From: Leifsonia aquatica
GTDB lineage: Bacteria > Actinomycetota > Actinomycetes > Actinomycetales > Microbacteriaceae
Length of the DNA stretch: 64,000 bases
Direction: 5' to 3'
Assembly: GCF_014190775.1 (NCBI RefSeq)
Contig: NZ_JACHVP010000002.1
Span: 186,001-250,000 of the forward strand
Positions 58,191 through 64,000 of the stretch are shown here, one piece after another (position 1 is the first letter of the stretch; the number at the start of each line of letters is the position of its first letter). The position numbers and the translations under genes were made by a program. The notes beneath the pieces were generated by a model, which saw only the letters and a program-made list of their open reading frames with translations, had not been told where the DNA came from and ran no database searches.

Positions 58191-58250
58191 ACATTCGTGC
58201 CGAATGTCGTGAATGGGCGCCGCTAACACCGCATTCGTGCCGAATGTCGG
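58191..58250. repeat. Pair of near-palindromic repeats, 40-bp period
   Basis: Two copies of CATTCGTGCCGAATGTCG, at 58192-58209 and 58232-58249, exactly 40 bp apart. Each is the inverted repeat CATTCG-TGC-CGAATG. They lie between ridA and the type III PKS cluster. The centre is reversed relative to the 6971 pair. Confidence 0.8.
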
Positions 58251-58302
58251 GAGTGGGGAGACTGCCCCGTGCCCTCCCTGTGGCGCACGGAGCCACGGGG
58301 TG

Positions 58303-58308
58303 TACGTT
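58303..58308 (+). promoter_or_regulatory. -10 box of leaderless type III PKS promoter
   Basis: TACGTT, 6 nt before the GTG at 58315. Confidence 0.5.
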
Positions 58309-58314
58309 GCGCTT

Positions 58315-59418
58315 GTGAGCCGAATCGTGTCGGTGGCGCCGGTGCTCCCGGCCCGCAGCTACCCCCAGCAGGAGATCACGACCGCGCTTCTGGGGATGAT
58401 CACACCGGACCCGAAGCGCCAGGCCGTGATGCGCCGCATCCACGCCTCCAGCGGGGTGGAGACACGCAGTCTGGTCATGCCGCTCGAGCGGTACAGCTCG
58501 ATCGCGTCGTTCCAGGAGTCGAACGACTTCTTCATCGCCGAGGGCACGACCCTGGCCGAGCGCGCCATCACCGGGGCGCTCGCCTCGGCCGGGCTCGAAC
58601 CGGCCGACGTCGACTTCCTGCTCTTCACCTCGGTGACCGGCATCGCCGCCCCGTCGATCGACGCGCAACTCGTCGCGCGACTCGGGCTGCGCCCCGACGT
58701 CAAACGGCTGCCGAGCTTCGGTCTCGGCTGCGTCGCCGGCGCAGCGGGCATCGCCCGGGTGCACGACTATCTGGCCGGTCATCCCGGGGAGGTCGCCGTG
58801 CTGCTGTCGGTGGAGCTCTGCTCCCTCACGGTGCAGGCCAGCGACGACTCGATGGCGAACATCGTCGCCAGCGGCCTCTTCGGCGACGGCGCCGCGGCGG
58901 TCGTGATGGTCGGCGACGAGCGGGCCGAGGCTCTGGGTCTCCCAGGCCCCGAGGTGGTGGACACCCGCAGCCACATCTACCCCGACACCGCCGATGTCAT
59001 CGGCTGGGACATCGGCGGCACCGGTTTCCGCATCGTCCTGAGCGCGGGCGTGCCCGACGTGATCGAGCGCAATTTCGCGGGGGATGCCCGTGGGATCCTC
59101 GCCGCGCACGGCCTCGACGTCTCCGACGTGGGGGCCTGGGCCGCGCATCCCGGCGGCCCGAAGGTGCTGGAGGCGTTCGCGCAAGCGCTCGACCTGCCCG
59201 AAGGAGCCTTGGACGCGAGCTGGCGGTCGCTGGCCCGCGTCGGCAACCTGTCGTCGGCGGCCGTGCTGCACGTGCTCGCCGAGCAGCTGGACGCCCACGA
59301 ACCCGGGACGGTCGGGTTGCTCTTCGCCCTCGGCCCCGGCGTGACGAGCGAGCTCGTGCTGCTGCGCTGGGCGGCCGGCGCTGCGCAGGCCCCCGCGGCG
59401 ATCGGCGCGGCCGCGTGA
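58315..59418 (+). CDS. Type III polyketide synthase
   Basis: A 367-residue chalcone-synthase-like homodimeric ketosynthase. Catalytic triad: C139 in SFGLGCVAGAAG, H278 in WAAHPGGPKVLEAF and N311 in RVGNLSSAAVL. The HPGGPKVL form separates it from FabH. Such enzymes extend a fatty acyl-CoA with malonyl-CoA to make alkylresorcinols or alkylpyrones. It heads a tight three-gene operon with a methyltransferase and a flavoprotein, the same set as Streptomyces srsABC. The GTG 58315 start is supported by the -10 box 6 nt upstream. Confidence 0.92.
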   Translation: MSRIVSVAPVLPARSYPQQEITTALLGMITPDPKRQAVMRRIHASSGVETRSLVMPLERYSSIASFQESNDFFIAEGTTLAERAITGALASAGLEPADVDFLLFTSVTGIAAPSIDAQLVARLGLRPDVKRLPSFGLGCVAGAAGIARVHDYLAGHPGEVAVLLSVELCSLTVQASDDSMANIVASGLFGDGAAAVVMVGDERAEALGLPGPEVVDTRSHIYPDTADVIGWDIGGTGFRIVLSAGVPDVIERNFAGDARGILAAHGLDVSDVGAWAAHPGGPKVLEAFAQALDLPEGALDASWRSLARVGNLSSAAVLHVLAEQLDAHEPGTVGLLFALGPGVTSELVLLRWAAGAAQAPAAIGAAA

Positions 59419-59431
59419 TCCGGGCGGCGTC

Positions 59432-59956
59432 GTGATCTGGTACACACTGCTCGTGCTGGCGACCGGCGGCGAGCGCATCGCCGAGCTGGTCGTCTCCGCC
59501 CGCAACGCCCGCTGGTCGTTCGCCCGCGGCGGGGTGGAGTTCGGCCGCGGGCACTTCCCGCCGATGGTCGCCCTCCACACGGGCCTGCTGCTCGCCTGCC
59601 TGGCCGAGGTGTGGTTCGGCGACCGCCCGTTCCTCCCCTGGCTCGGCTGGCCGATGTTCGCGCTGGTGCTCGCCAGCCAGGCGCTGCGCTGGTGGTGCAT
59701 CACCGCCCTCGGTCCGCGCTGGAACACGCGGGTCATCATCGTGCGCGACCTCCCGCTCGTCGCGGGCGGCCCGTACCGCTGGCTGAAGCATCCCAATTAC
59801 ATCGCCGTCGTGGTGGAGGGGTTCGCCCTCCCCCTCGTGCACACCGCGTGGATCACCGCGCTCGCCTTCACCGTGCTGAACGCGGTGCTGCTGCTGGCCG
59901 TGCGCATCCCCTGCGAGAACCGCGCCCTGGCGACCGTCGCCCCCGCACGGGCATGA
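59432..59956 (+). CDS. ICMT-like membrane methyltransferase
   Basis: A 174-residue protein with about four membrane segments and the C-terminal isoprenylcysteine-carboxyl-methyltransferase signature: LVAGGPYRWLKHPNYIAVVVEG and IPCENRALA near the end. In phenolic-lipid clusters the homologue (SrsB) methylates the ring hydroxyl of the PKS product. It begins 13 bp after the PKS gene and overlaps the next gene by ATGA. Confidence 0.88.
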   Translation: MIWYTLLVLATGGERIAELVVSARNARWSFARGGVEFGRGHFPPMVALHTGLLLACLAEVWFGDRPFLPWLGWPMFALVLASQALRWWCITALGPRWNTRVIIVRDLPLVAGGPYRWLKHPNYIAVVVEGFALPLVHTAWITALAFTVLNAVLLLAVRIPCENRALATVAPARA

Positions 59957-60996
59957 CAGCCCCCGACCTGATCGTCGTCGGCGCCGGCCCGGTGGGGCTG
60001 GCGTGCGCGATCGAGGCGCGGCTCGACGGGATGGACGTGCTCGTCGTCGAACCGCGCAGCGGCCCCATCGACAAGGCGTGCGGGGAGGGGCTCATGCCGG
60101 GCGCGCTCGCGGCCCTGCACCGGATCGGCGTCGATCCCGCCGGTCGCCCGCTGGCCGGGATCGCGTACATCGATCGCGACGCGCGCGTCGAGCACCGGTT
60201 CGCCGAGCGCCCGGGGCGCGGAGTGCGGCGAACGGTCCTCCACGCCGCCCTCGCCGAGCGCGCCGAGTCGCTGGGCGCACGGAGGGCCGAGGGCCGGGTC
60301 ACGGGTGTCTCCCACAGCGGCGACCGCGTGCGGCTCGAACTCGCCGACGGCGGGTCGCTCGAGGCTCCCTGGGCGATCGCGGCCGACGGCCTCCACTCCC
60401 CCATGCGCCGGCTGCTCGGACTCGAGCGGCGCCCGCAGGCCGAGGCCCGGCGCCGGTTCGGCGTCCGGCGGCACTACGCGGTCGAGCCGTGGAGCGATCT
60501 GGTGGAGGTGCACTGGTCCCCGGTCGCCGAGGCCTACGTCACCCCGGTGGACGAGCGCACGGTCGGCGTCGCCGTGCTGGGGCGGCGGCCGCTGGATCAG
60601 GAGGCCGTGCTCGCGTCGCTGCCGGGGCTCGCCTCCCGGCTCACCGGCGTCGGGACGATCGGCTCGCTGCGCGGCGCCGGCCCCCTGCTGCAGCGCGCCC
60701 GATCGCGGTCGTCCGGGCGCACGCTGCTCGCCGGCGACGCATCCGGGTACGTGGACGCCCTCACGGGCGAGGGGATGCGCGTCGGCTTCGCGCAGGCGCG
60801 GGCCGCCGTCGCCGCCGTGCGCGCGGGCGACACCGAGCAGTACGAGCGGGCGTGGCGGGCGACGACCCGCGATTTCCGGATGCTGACCTCGGCCCTGGTG
60901 ATCGCGGCGCGCTCGCGATTCCGGCCCCGCATCGTGCCGACCGCCGCGGCGCGGCCCGAGCTCTTCGGCTCCATCGTCGAGCGCCTCTCGCGCTGA
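59953..60996 (+). CDS. FAD-dependent monooxygenase/oxidoreductase
   Basis: A 347-residue flavoprotein of the geranylgeranyl-reductase / PHBH-like fold. FAD motif LIVVGAGPVGLACAIEAR at residues 6-23; DKACGEGLMPGALAAL; and the second FAD motif LLAGDASGYVDALTGEGM. In srs-type clusters the flavoprotein hydroxylates the alkylresorcinol ring to a quinol/quinone. Last gene of the cluster. An export or transport gene does not follow. Confidence 0.88.
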   Translation: MTAPDLIVVGAGPVGLACAIEARLDGMDVLVVEPRSGPIDKACGEGLMPGALAALHRIGVDPAGRPLAGIAYIDRDARVEHRFAERPGRGVRRTVLHAALAERAESLGARRAEGRVTGVSHSGDRVRLELADGGSLEAPWAIAADGLHSPMRRLLGLERRPQAEARRRFGVRRHYAVEPWSDLVEVHWSPVAEAYVTPVDERTVGVAVLGRRPLDQEAVLASLPGLASRLTGVGTIGSLRGAGPLLQRARSRSSGRTLLAGDASGYVDALTGEGMRVGFAQARAAVAAVRAGDTEQYERAWRATTRDFRMLTSALVIAARSRFRPRIVPTAAARPELFGSIVERLSR

Positions 60997-61096: not shown

Positions 61097-61426
61097 ATGA
61101 GCCGACCCTCCGATGAGAGCTCCTCAGCCCGTCGGCGCAAGCCTCCCGACACCTCGCCGTTTCACGCCCAGCCCAGCGCGGTCGGCAGCCCTGCGGGGTC
61201 GCGCCGCCGCACGACCATCACGTTCTATCTGACCGACGCCCTGCGCAATCGCGCCCGGTCCGTGTACCGGGCCACCTCGTTCGCCGAGCGAGACAGCAGC
61301 TGGTCCGAGATGCTCACCAAAGCGCTCCTCGCCGAGGTCGAGCGCCGCGAGCTCGAGCACAACGACGGCGAACCCTTCGTCATCACCGACGAACCATTGA
61401 CCCCCGGCAGACCCATCGGGTTCTGA
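61097..61426 (+). CDS. Ribbon-helix-helix-like DNA-binding protein
   Basis: A 109-residue protein. The first 36 residues are basic and Ser/Pro-rich, presumably disordered. RRTTITFYLTDALRNRARSVY looks like the RHH beta strand and first helix, followed by SSWSEMLTKALLAEVERREL as the second helix; the tail is acidic (NDGEPFVITDE). The layout recalls small centromere-binding partition partners and ParB-like proteins of plasmids, but no ParA is nearby. It stands alone with its own AT-rich control region. Confidence 0.6.
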   Translation: MSRPSDESSSARRRKPPDTSPFHAQPSAVGSPAGSRRRTTITFYLTDALRNRARSVYRATSFAERDSSWSEMLTKALLAEVERRELEHNDGEPFVITDEPLTPGRPIGF

Positions 61427-61433
61427 CCGGGCC

Positions 61434-61486
61434 GAGAGGGCGTCCCGCCTGGCGGATCCCCCCAACTCCCCGCGGGGCGCCCTCTC
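61434..61486. terminator. Bidirectional terminator between convergent genes
   Basis: GAGAGGGCGTCCCGC (61434-61448) pairs with GCGGGGCGCCCTCTC (61472-61486) apart from a central mismatch. It lies between the RHH-like gene and the META-type lipoprotein gene. Confidence 0.65.
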
Positions 61487-61504
61487 ACTCCCCGGTCGGC
61501 ACGC

Positions 61505-61873
61505 TCAGCCCTTGGCGAGCGTGCCGACCTTCTCTCCACCGTTCGCGTAGACGACGAGGTCGCCGCCGGAGATCTTCGCCGTGTTCGCCCGGCTGAGCCA
61601 GGGGTTCACACCGTCGCACGCCTTGAGGGTCGAGGCGAAGGGACCGAAGGTGAACGTGTCGCCGCTCACCGTCCCCTTGCCCGACATGTCGTTGCAGCCG
61701 TCGTTGCCGCTGAAGGTGCCGTCATCCTTGATCGTCAGGTTCGGCTGTCCCGCTGCCGACGACCCCCAGGTGCCGGTGAAGGACGAACCGGGCGACGAAC
61801 ACCCGGTGAGGGCGACGATCGCGGCGACAGCGGCGAGGGCGAGGGCGGCGCGGGCGGGTCTCAGGCTCATCAT
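61505..61873 (-). CDS. META-domain-like lipoprotein
   Basis: A 122-residue lipoprotein: lipobox LTGC around residue 25, then a single domain of about 95 residues. GTWGSSAAGQPNLTIKDDGTF, GNDGCNDMSGKG and FTFGPFASTLKACDG are the META/HslJ pattern, with two cysteines that could form a disulfide. META-domain proteins sit at the cell surface and are linked to stress tolerance. Start ATG 61873, or the ATG one codon later. Confidence 0.8.
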   Translation of the reverse strand: MMSLRPARAALALAAVAAIVALTGCSSPGSSFTGTWGSSAAGQPNLTIKDDGTFSGNDGCNDMSGKGTVSGDTFTFGPFASTLKACDGVNPWLSRANTAKISGGDLVVYANGGEKVGTLAKG

Positions 61874-61954
61874 GCCTCACACCGTAGTGGTCGGGCCGCG
61901 CGGCGGAAAGATGCATTCGCGGGCGAGACCACGCCTCACGGCGGGCATGGCGAA

Positions 61955-61988
61955 GCGGGCCGTCGACCGGGATCGACCGACGGCCCGC
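61955..61988 (-). terminator. Terminator after the chaplin-repeat gene
   Basis: A perfect 11-bp stem: GCGGGCCGTCG (61955-61965) with CGACGGCCCGC (61978-61988) and a 12-nt loop. It begins about 17 bp downstream of the stop on the minus strand. Confidence 0.65.
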
Positions 61989-62005
61989 GCGCCGTTCGCA
62001 CGCGA

Positions 62006-63775
62006 CTAGCGCGTGCGGTGGTGCCGCCGTTCGCGGCTGGCCGCCGTGAAGAGCGCCAGCACTCCGAAGAGCGCCAGGAGCGCGGCGAGCGCGCCCAGGG
62101 CCAGTTCGTTCGAGCCGGTCGAGGCGAGCATCGCCGAACCGCCGGAGCCGAGCGCCATCACGGCGCCGACCGAAGCCGTCGTCGTGCCGGTGCCCGTGCC
62201 GGTTCCGTTGCCGCCGTCACCCGGGACGACCGGAGTCGTCGGCGTGGTGGGCGTGGTGGGAGTGGTGGGAGTGGTCGGGGTGGTCGGCGTCGTCGGGGTC
62301 GTGGTCGACCCGGTCGTGCCACTGTCGCCGATGACGCTGATCGCGTTGCCGCCGACCGTCACGGGCACATCCAGCCCGATCGGCAGCTCGACGGGGAGCA
62401 GACCGCCGAGGAGGCCGGTGCCGGAGTCACCCGTGCCGGTTCCGCCGGTGACGGTGGTGCCGCCGCCCGTGGTGGGCGCCGTCACCGTGGAGCCGCCGCT
62501 GGACGAGTCGCCCACGACGCTCACCGCGTTGCCGCCGGCCGTCACGGGGACACCGGCGTTGATCGGCAGCTGGACGCCGCCGGTCAGGCCGCCGAGCAGT
62601 CCGCCGTCCGTTCCGGTGCCGGTCCCGCCGCTGGTGGCGGTGGTGCCGGTACCGGACCCCGCCGGGGCGGTGGTGGAGGAGCCGGTCGACGAGGAGTCGC
62701 CGACCACGCTGATCGCGTTGCCGCCCGCGGTCACGGGGACTCCCGCGTTCACGGGAGCCTGCACGTCGCCGAGCAGGCCGCCCAGGAGGCCGGAGTCACC
62801 CGAGCCGGAGCCCGAGCCGCTCGCCACCGTGGTGCCCGAGCCCGTCGCCGGCGCCGAGGTCGTCGACCCCGCCGTGGTGGAGTCGCCCAGCACGCTGATC
62901 GCGTTGCCGCCCGCGGTCACGGGCAGTGCCGCATTCACCGGCGCCTGCACGTTGCCGAGCAGACCGCCCAGGAGGCCGCTGTCGCCCGAGCCGGAGGCCG
63001 GGTCGCTCGTCACCGTGGTGCCGGCTCCCGCCGCCGGAGCGGAGGTCTGCGAGCCGGTCGACGACGAGTCGCCCAGCACGCTGATCGCGTTGCCGCCGAC
63101 CGTCACCGGGACCGCGGCATCCACCGGGGCCTGCACGTCGCCGAGCAGGCCGCCCAGCAGTCCGTCGTCCGAGCCGCCTCCGGTCGACGTCACCGTCGCG
63201 CCGGGAGCCGCCGCCGGGGCGGTCGCGGTCGAACCGGACGACGACGAGTCGCCCAGCACGCTGATCGCGTTGCCGCCGACCGTCACGGGGACGGCCGCGT
63301 TCACCGGCGCCTGCACGTCGCCGAGCAGGCCGCCGTCACCAGACGAATCGGTCGTGGTCGCCGTCGGCGCCGGGGCCGCGGCAGGCGCGGCCGGAGCCGT
63401 CTGCGACTGGTCGCTGCCGGCATCGCCGGCCACGCTGATCGCGTTCCCGGTGACCGTGACCGGCACCGAGACGTCGGCGACGGCCTGCGTGCCGTCGAGG
63501 ACGCCGCCGATGGCGGACGGGTCGATCGTCACGGACGGAGCCGCGGCGGGCGCCGGAGCGCTCGTCGTCGCCCCGGCCGAGGACGAGTCGCCCAGGACCG
63601 AGATCCCGTTGCCGGAGATCGTGACCGGGACGGAGAGTCCGACCACCGCTTGGGTGCCGGAGCCGGCGCTGTCGGCGGTGGGGGCCTCAGCGGCGTTCGC
63701 CGCCGCCGTCCCCGCCAGCCACAGGCCGCCGGTGCAGAGGGTGATCCACAACCCTCGCGAGACGTACTTGTTCAT
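62006..63775 (-). CDS. Surface protein with eight chaplin-like repeats and LAxTG anchor
   Basis: A 589-residue exported protein. Signal peptide ends in ANAA around residue 29. Eight repeats follow, each of about 55-62 residues, built on VPVTVGGNAISVLGD with a Gly/Ser/Thr/Ala-rich linker (residues about 40-490). This core matches the chaplin motif VPVNVCGNSVNVIG but without the cysteines. A PTT repeat (about 490-520) then precedes LASTGSNELALG, a membrane helix and RERRHHRTR, a sortase E-type signal. Chaplins are hydrophobic amyloid-forming surface proteins of aerial Streptomyces, and the long ones are LAxTG-anchored. It probably coats the cell surface. Confidence 0.75.
   Translation of the reverse strand: MNKYVSRGLWITLCTGGLWLAGTAAANAAEAPTADSAGSGTQAVVGLSVPVTISGNGISVLGDSSSAGATTSAPAPAAAPSVTIDPSAIGGVLDGTQAVADVSVPVTVTGNAISVAGDAGSDQSQTAPAAPAAAPAPTATTTDSSGDGGLLGDVQAPVNAAVPVTVGGNAISVLGDSSSSGSTATAPAAAPGATVTSTGGGSDDGLLGGLLGDVQAPVDAAVPVTVGGNAISVLGDSSSTGSQTSAPAAGAGTTVTSDPASGSGDSGLLGGLLGNVQAPVNAALPVTAGGNAISVLGDSTTAGSTTSAPATGSGTTVASGSGSGSGDSGLLGGLLGDVQAPVNAGVPVTAGGNAISVVGDSSSTGSSTTAPAGSGTGTTATSGGTGTGTDGGLLGGLTGGVQLPINAGVPVTAGGNAVSVVGDSSSGGSTVTAPTTGGGTTVTGGTGTGDSGTGLLGGLLPVELPIGLDVPVTVGGNAISVIGDSGTTGSTTTPTTPTTPTTPTTPTTPTTPTTPVVPGDGGNGTGTGTGTTTASVGAVMALGSGGSAMLASTGSNELALGALAALLALFGVLALFTAASRERRHHRTR
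62236..62312 (-). repeat. PTT microrepeat
   Basis: GTGGTGGGAGTGGTCGG-type 9-bp repeats encode the Pro-Thr-Thr wall-spanning spacer before the sorting signal. Confidence 0.7.
62335..63700 (-). repeat. Eight DNA repeats encoding chaplin-like units
   Basis: Units are about 180-189 bp apart, centred on CTGATCGCGTTGCCGCC-type cores near 62338, 62521, 62709, 62898, 63079, 63258, 63437 and 63600. The six on the left are most alike; the two nearest the signal peptide are most diverged. Confidence 0.8.
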
Positions 63776-63802
63776 GGTTCAGCCTTTCGAATGAGTGATG
63801 TC

Positions 63803-63845
63803 GCCTCCGCGTGGGAGGCATGGTCGCGTTCTGCCCGCAGGCAGA
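63803..63845 (-). terminator. Two short hairpins upstream of the chaplin-repeat gene
   Basis: GCCTCC-N5-GGAGGC (63803-63819) and TCTGCC-CGCA-GGCAGA (63830-63845). They follow the stop of the partial gene at 63856 and would end its transcript. Confidence 0.4.
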
Positions 63846-63855
63846 CGGGACCCAC

Positions 63856-64000
63856 TCAGTCGGGGCTGGTGTCGTGGTCGGCGACGGGGGACGCCGGGAT
63901 GCGGTCGTCCATTGAAGCGCTGGTCGCGCCGCCCAGGGCGCATGTAGGCAGGGCGATGCCGTCGGCGACGGCCGAGAGCGCGACGCCGCCACCGCCTGCC
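63856..64000 (-). CDS. C-terminal end of a gene running off the window
   Basis: An open minus-strand frame ends with TGA at 63858-63856 and continues past the window edge. The 47 visible residues read GVALSAVADGIALPTCALGG then SMDDRIPASPVADHDTSPD, with a small-residue hydrophobic stretch and an acidic tail. Nothing can be said of its function. The overlapping frame from 63992 is arginine-rich and less likely. Confidence 0.4.
   Translation of the reverse strand, partial: AGGGGVALSAVADGIALPTCALGGATSASMDDRIPASPVADHDTSPD

Follow-up and report, generated by a model that had tools for sequence, protein, structure and literature searches.

Multi-unit, cysteine-free chaplin-like wall proteins are encoded beside a conserved partner gene in Leifsonia aquatica and its relatives

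Introduction

In Streptomyces, chaplins are the textbook components of aerial growth, and many Microbacteriaceae are rods without aerial hyphae. Here we analyse a gene from Leifsonia aquatica, located in a 64,000-nt stretch of contig NZ_JACHVP010000002.1 (the window, to which all positions refer; labels such as L001 denote fetched loci), that codes for a chaplin-like, wall-anchored protein of eight repeat units and stands directly downstream of a gene for a secreted-looking partner. In Streptomyces coelicolor, class E sortases (SrtE) attach the long chaplins through an LAXTG motif (PMC5148588). The chaplin domain is described as having three GN motifs at a spacing of 12-13 residues (PMC13251363), and two cysteines per domain are usual, with ChpE and the second domain of ChpB as exceptions (PMC3079736, PMC13251363). 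The cysteines are dispensable for fibrils in vitro, since cysteine-free ChpE and reduced chaplins still make cross-beta fibrils; in vivo, the cysteines matter for ChpH (PMC3079736). Chaplin-like genes in actinobacteria that form no aerial hyphae are not new in themselves: they were reported in 2013 from Arthrobacter chlorophenolicus, a nonsporulating rod-coccus, where it was proposed that attachment is an older role, and a broader part for chaplins has thus already been raised there (PMC4255298).

Results

A conserved two-gene unit

A sequence-only reading of the locus had pictured a surface coat built by a single multivalent protein. That picture is not supported: the gene and its upstream neighbour together form a conserved two-gene unit, and this unit, with its P-D-tailed partner, is a stronger finding than the chaplin relation taken up below. 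The partner gene lies directly upstream on the same strand, across a gap of 80 bp. In a collection of species genomes, 391 stretches carried a pattern and 311 of them encode a relative; the best 80 of the 311 were kept, and 77 of these could be assessed for the partner (L116 lacks a gene start, and two loci lie too close to a contig end). All 77 have an upstream frame ending in PD (76 loci) or PG (one), separated from the multi-unit gene by 57-134 bp (median 89). Upstream frames, of which the zones held 212 candidates, were read both without and with a tail filter, and the count of 77/77 comes from the filtered reading; as background, 77 of 6274 other frames of the same loci end in PD or PG, 11 of them in PD. 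The tails follow a consensus DDxLPSSPVxDTDxSPD, and the pattern P..[PLVI]-x(4-7)-[DG]..PD fits 70 of the 77.

By eye the partner begins like a signal peptide, and it carries no sorting signal. A BLAST test of the neighbourhood picked it at just 5 of the 80 loci, because masking hides its sequence; reading the upstream frames is what revealed it. The window's partner has no family match in Pfam or NCBIfam, and scans of 43 of the 77 partners returned scattered matches only (PhasinPhaH, Collagen_mid, DUF6987 and DUF7217 two each, CsmC and ApoLp-III one each). A model of the partner from Leifsonia sp. 71-9 shows helices within residues 57-172, with a predicted local distance difference test score (pLDDT) of 67-82 in blocks, and is disordered thereafter (mean 59.9); a fold search with this model gave nothing significant (best E 7.1 and 9.6). 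A helical and disordered partner of the kind modelled would suit an amphipathic, surface-active protein. The wider neighbourhood was rejected as part of the system, its genes being matched chiefly in Leifsonia (among the 80 loci, MFS 10, MarR 12, META 3, ParB-like 9 and FAD-oxidoreductase 9).

Co-occurrence in genome surveys

Profiles of the partner (A2) and of the anchored protein (A3), both built from this protein family, were compared with 150 Microbacteriaceae genomes, a survey that overlaps the 80 loci and is not an independent sample. A3 is matched by 76 of the 150 at E<=1e-6, many in the spacer and anchor alone, and by 42 with a best E<=1e-20; a partner adjoins all 42 of these strong matches. 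A2 itself is matched at E<=1e-3 in 36 of the 42, and the remaining six have a PD-ending frame upstream. The two matches lie 84-195 bp apart in 32 of the 36 genomes, 382-438 bp apart in three, where the A3 match starts late in the profile, and 1129 bp apart in G148, whose locus (L168) on reading has a partner ending CSPD next door.

A2 matches 43 genomes of the family, including seven without a strong A3 match, all of which were read. At four loci (L142, L143, L144 and L151) the partner is followed by a gene with the family leader but repeats without chaplin signal, whose scores with the chaplin and unit profiles do not exceed those of shuffles; an anchor is visible in three of them, and L151 is truncated where the fetched stretch stops. 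L169 retains the partner tail, with its downstream side off the contig, and the A2 matches of L152 and L170 are something else.

In a survey of 198 genomes across the order, A2 reaches E<=1e-5 in 20, of which 11 lie outside the family. Downstream of these 11, five proteins score higher with the unit profile than any of 200 shuffles (L157 at 396.5 bits, L158 at 114.8, L159 at 144.5, L164 at 40.9 and L167 at 35.3), and the canonical chaplin profile described below rises above shuffles just for L157, L158 and L159; L157 is probably the same as the Janibacter locus L121. The downstream proteins of L160 and L163 give no score with the unit or the canonical profile, and at four of the 11 loci no such downstream frame passed the filter. 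Partner tails outside the family end in PD, SPA or SPG, with none clear in L166. In the distant relatives L159, L164 and L167 late units, such as VPVNVSCIAAGVLGDAGAAC, carry cysteine pairs and are perhaps a bridge between the cysteine-free and canonical forms. A plasmid search gave no match for the anchored protein or the partner.

Architecture and anchor of the multi-unit protein

The open reading frame (ORF) runs from a signal peptide through eight units around VPVTVGGNAISVLGD and a PTT spacer to an end made of LASTG, a hydrophobic stretch and RERRHHRTR (Table 1), which bears out the eight repeats, spacer and LAxTG signal proposed earlier. Cores of about 24 residues are joined by Gly/Ser/Thr/Ala/Pro linkers of 31-39 residues, giving a unit-to-unit spacing of 55-63 residues, and unit 1 begins about 12 residues past the signal peptide. 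The units start at residues 49, 104, 162, 222, 284, 346, 409 and 470; seven of the eight fit the unit regular expression, the exception being LPVTAGGNAISVLGD at residue 284. At the DNA level, Tandem Repeats Finder reports 4.5 tandem copies of a 186-bp repeat at 62502-63334, with a score of 803. The units are free of cysteine, as had been claimed, the sole cysteine of the 589 residues being residue 14, inside the signal peptide. Residues 29-553 are without Lys, Arg, His, Phe, Trp, Tyr and Cys, and their acidic residues are 28 Asp and 2 Glu. The grand average of hydropathy is 0.73 for the units versus 0.06 for the linkers; canonical chaplin domains have 0.58.

With LASTG, hydrophobic stretch and basic tail, the C-terminus is that of a long chaplin. 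The class E sortase, whose absence was to count against the first reading, is present: of two Pfam sortases in the genome, the one at L022:1420-2451 (-) scores 244.3 bits with NCBIfam NF033747 (cut-off 160), and the second scores 52.5 bits, below that cut-off.

Table 1. Features of the two-gene locus, positions in the window
Feature	Position	Strand	Remarks
Multi-unit gene	62006..63775	-	CDS, 589 aa, ATG start; eight-unit chaplin-like wall-anchored protein, mature part Cys-free
Signal peptide	63692..63775	-	residues 1-28, MNKYVSRGLWITLCTGGLWLAGTAAANA; leader common to relatives
Unit 1 core	63587..63658	-	residues 40-63
Unit 2 core	63422..63493	-	residues 95-118
Unit 3 core	63248..63319	-	residues 153-176
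Unit 4 core	63068..63139	-	residues 213-236
Unit 5 core	62882..62953	-	residues 275-298
Unit 6 core	62696..62767	-	residues 337-360
Unit 7 core	62507..62578	-	residues 400-423
Unit 8 core	62324..62395	-	residues 461-484
PTT spacer	62222..62305	-	residues 491-518
LASTG sorting motif	62114..62128	-	residues 550-554
Hydrophobic segment ahead of basic tail	62036..62107	-	~residues 557-580, limits by eye; model helix 557-587
First hairpin	63830..63845	-	TCTGCC-TGCG-GGCAGA, 10 nt past partner stop codon
Second hairpin	63803..63819	-	GCCTCC-CACGC-GGAGGC
3' end of partner gene	63856..64000	-	329-aa secreted-looking protein ending DDRIPASPVADHDTSPD; whole gene L001:4857-5846 (-), past window end

Relation of the units to chaplins

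How close are the units to chaplin domains? A canonical profile of 27 two-cysteine chaplin domains, taken from genomes of the class (presumably Streptomyces), aligns in register to all eight window units at 30.7 bits, as where vqvPvhvPvnvCGntvnviG of the profile meets the window unit VQAPVNAAVPVTVGGNAISVLG; units 3-7 require a two-residue insertion, and a ninth reported stretch is linker (0.8 bits). Among 1000 full shuffles of the window protein, 997 were scored and none reaches this value (best 6.2 bits), nor does any of 1000 controls that keep the repeat structure by applying the same permutation (best -1.8). In the reverse test, a profile of 485 units from relatives scores all 27 canonical domains at 19.9-33.0 bits, against a maximum of 7.8 bits in 1070 scored shuffles. 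Alignment of the two profiles with hhalign covers 30 columns at a probability of 94.9 for the family units, and the window units alone give 88.2. Moreover, PF03777 matches 36 of 41 full-length proteins at E<=0.001 (best 1e-40) in a scan of the window protein, which is not among the matches, and 40 of 67 suitable relatives.

Of the 485 units, 97% have G(-9), 100% P(+1), 98% G(+6), 93% N(+7), 100% G(+13) and 96% D(+14), figures that are partly built in, since the pattern used to pick units restricts most of these positions, though not G(-9). The central GN is retained; at the first site G stands in 97% and N in 14%. Some canonical chaplin leaders (MRQVTRKGLMTVAAAGG...AHAD) also look like the family leader, by eye and unscored.

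Several results pull the other way. The Pfam scan of the window protein returns only ChpA-C (PF03777), at E 0.85 and 9.9 bits with a cut-off of 21; the profile made from the window's eight units overlaps its control, scoring canonical domains at 6.9-19.0 bits and shuffles at up to 9.1; the third GN of the canonical domain is replaced in the 485 units by a GDS-type sequence, so that three GN motifs are not found; and the window protein lacks the two cysteines per domain. Nor does a PF03777 search find a short chaplin in the genome at E<=0.001 (one match has E 0.4), and therefore the Streptomyces division of labour between short and long chaplins is absent here. Short sequence of biased composition, together with the Pfam and eight-unit results, is what convergence of Val/Gly-rich beta repeats without chaplin kinship would lead one to expect; the shuffle controls, the reciprocal profile matches, the relatives' PF03777 matches and the LAxTG end argue against it.

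Because strict membership fails on cysteines, third GN and Pfam cut-off, we call the protein a chaplin-derived variant. Of the identity first proposed, a relation stands, through the canonical and reciprocal profiles and the PF03777 matches of relatives, and membership in the strict sense does not; the similarity looked for in a profile search is found for the family, where Pfam alone leaves the window protein short. The relation is supported for the family and, via the canonical profile, for the window protein, and on these comparisons descent of the units from chaplins is highly probable.

Variation among relatives

The nearest of the 80 kept relatives, with 87% over its best-matching segment, comes from Leifsonia sp. 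71-9. Besides Leifsonia the genera include Agromyces, Microbacterium, Herbiconiux, Agreia, Cryobacterium, Agrococcus and others, with one Janibacter, and some metagenome-assembled genomes, one of them labelled Fulvimarina and lying on a 12-kb contig. A script found the start at 75 of the 80 loci, and 69 of those proteins are complete. Past residue 40, 64 of the 69 have no cysteine, four have two, and L097 has ten, apparently from a frame change. A C-terminal LAxTG is present in 64, LPVTG, LPNTG or LATSG in three, and no sorting motif in two (L080 and L097). The regular expression counts 3-10 units per protein, 6-8 in 54 of the 69.

The canonical chaplin cysteine pair was sought in the relatives; the pairs of four Herbiconiux-type proteins (L075, L106, L118 and L131), one per protein and of the C-x4-C, GGNAVCVIGDC type, sit at another position, in one unit directly ahead of the spacer. 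Very long open frames stand at L099 (2500 residues) and L120 (at least 1181 residues), showing a family-like leader and, by the regular expression, four units. In its own genome the gene is single-copy: profile A1 finds three pieces of the ORF only, and another match, at E 0.54, is to the spacer/anchor part. A sequence search of the PDB with the window protein gave no match, and profile A3 gave four, all at profile positions 412-508, which are spacer and anchor.

Intergenic hairpins

The intergenic region (63776-63855) holds two hairpins. Perfect stems of at least 6 bp occur in 64 of the 77 intergenic regions versus 15% of mononucleotide shuffles, and a stem starting 9-12 nt past the partner's stop codon (search zone 7-13) is found at 44 of 77 loci; the corresponding figures are 25 of 1540 for shuffles and 10 of 71 for the regions behind the multi-unit gene. 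The loci's early hairpins have 26 different inner stems. In 11 Leifsonia sequences two-sided changes occur at 3 of 10 predicted pairs, with a small covariation term (-0.43). The hairpins may set the ratio of the two products. A search of 61400-64000 with Rfam gave a single match, to mir-2774 and below threshold (E 0.028), which we attribute to chance.

Predicted structure and other genes

One of five AlphaFold models of the window protein reaches a mean pLDDT of 65.1, and the rest stay at 45.6-53.1. The units are stacked in one of the five; among solved structures this model matches the curli amyloid CsgA best, on weak statistics. The scores are modest, and structure predictors are able to give tandem repeats a spurious solenoid. 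A curli-like stack of units is predicted only weakly.

Elsewhere in the window, genes for a type III polyketide synthase, an ICMT-family methyltransferase and an FAD-dependent oxidoreductase stand in a row (58213-60996, +), reminiscent of alkylresorcinol-type clusters. At 61097-61426 (+) a small protein is encoded that matches the C-terminal, centromere-binding domain of ParB, and 61505-61873 (-) holds a small gene whose product has a META domain and starts like a lipoprotein.

Discussion

Our preferred explanation, which we hold to be somewhat probable, is that Microbacteriaceae cells are coated by a variant of the long chaplins, multi-unit and free of cysteine, which belongs with its partner to a conserved surface system of two genes. 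Sortase E would couple the protein to peptidoglycan, and the cores would form short beta-strands stacking within and between molecules, giving a cross-beta, water-repelling layer; one polypeptide would thereby do the job shared by short and long chaplins in Streptomyces, and the partner would help assembly or complete the coat. That the coat is built together with the partner we put at even chances, and that it is amyloid in the strict sense, judged from sequence, seems to us somewhat doubtful. Likely roles are attachment, resistance to drying and the surface properties of colonies.

A structural form of this explanation, compatible with it and tentative, is that every molecule adopts, on its own, a cross-beta stack like that of curli, each unit forming one rung; the wall would then bear many short, pre-assembled rods and not a continuous film. 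The stacked model and its CsgA match are what this form would produce, and the low scores of the other models tell against it. Likewise, the beta-solenoid alternative raised from the sequence need not exclude a surface coat.

Equally tentative is a wider reading, in which the locus is a conserved two-component surface-assembly system of Micrococcales made of a secreted, predicted helical partner and an anchored repeat protein, whose passenger, mostly stacking chaplin cores, can be swapped for other repeats. The partner's free C-terminal tail would serve as an assembly or docking signal, and the second gene would be typed by its leader and anchored by sortase, its cysteine-free cores stacking intramolecularly into a curli-like cross-beta rod. 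If this were true, chaplins would be one among the cargoes of an older module for coat building, untied from aerial hyphae.

A stalk or fibrillar adhesin, in which a beta-solenoid or beads-on-a-string rod lifts a binding surface off the wall and chaplin descent goes without coat function, seems to us rather unlikely. Tandem units, a PTT spacer and a sortase anchor are typical of adhesin stalks; the strands of all units are stacked in one model, and four family genomes have another kind of repeats, as stalks often vary. On the other hand, there is no non-repeat ligand domain, unit 1 following so closely on the signal peptide; the chaplin residues of the cores are kept across genera; and the window protein has no match to an adhesin family at E<=0.001 in Pfam or NCBIfam. 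The Collagen matches of 9 of the 41 Pfam-scanned proteins come from a model prone to low-complexity matches. Convergence is very improbable, and we reject it on the shuffle and reciprocal profile tests.

The wide occurrence of a cysteine-free, multi-unit form in Microbacteriaceae suggests a broader surface function of chaplin cores, and a partner with a fixed tail offers a direct genetic handle on that function. Titles and abstract openings of the literature, a coverage that mostly leaves out subscription journals, yielded neither multi-unit chaplins nor such a partner.

How, then, does the locus compare with described systems? The long chaplins ChpA-C of Streptomyces are likewise secreted, anchored by LAxTG and a class E sortase, and built of chaplin cores (PMC5618241, PMC5148588). 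They differ in having two domains in about 225 residues, with cysteine pairs and three GN turns per domain, the second domain of ChpB alone being without cysteine; the window protein has eight shorter cores in 589 residues, no cysteine, no third GN and a non-chaplin partner gene. The account of Arthrobacter chlorophenolicus, in its available part, mentions no multi-unit cysteine-free forms and no partner gene (PMC4255298). ChpE resembles our units as a cysteine-free chaplin domain that still yields cross-beta fibrils in vitro (PMC3079736), but it is a single unit without wall anchor. CwpA and CwpB of Actinoplanes missouriensis, hydrophobic wall proteins that depend on SrtE, have been proposed to render the cell surface hydrophobic; their authors, in the part of the report available, find no chaplin domains there (PMC13251363), whereas the window units are chaplin-related. 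Finally, the best predicted model of the window protein resembles curli CsgA, on weak statistics, as a stacked cross-beta solenoid, but no sequence relation is seen, and the window units are long-linkered and belong to a wall-anchored protein.
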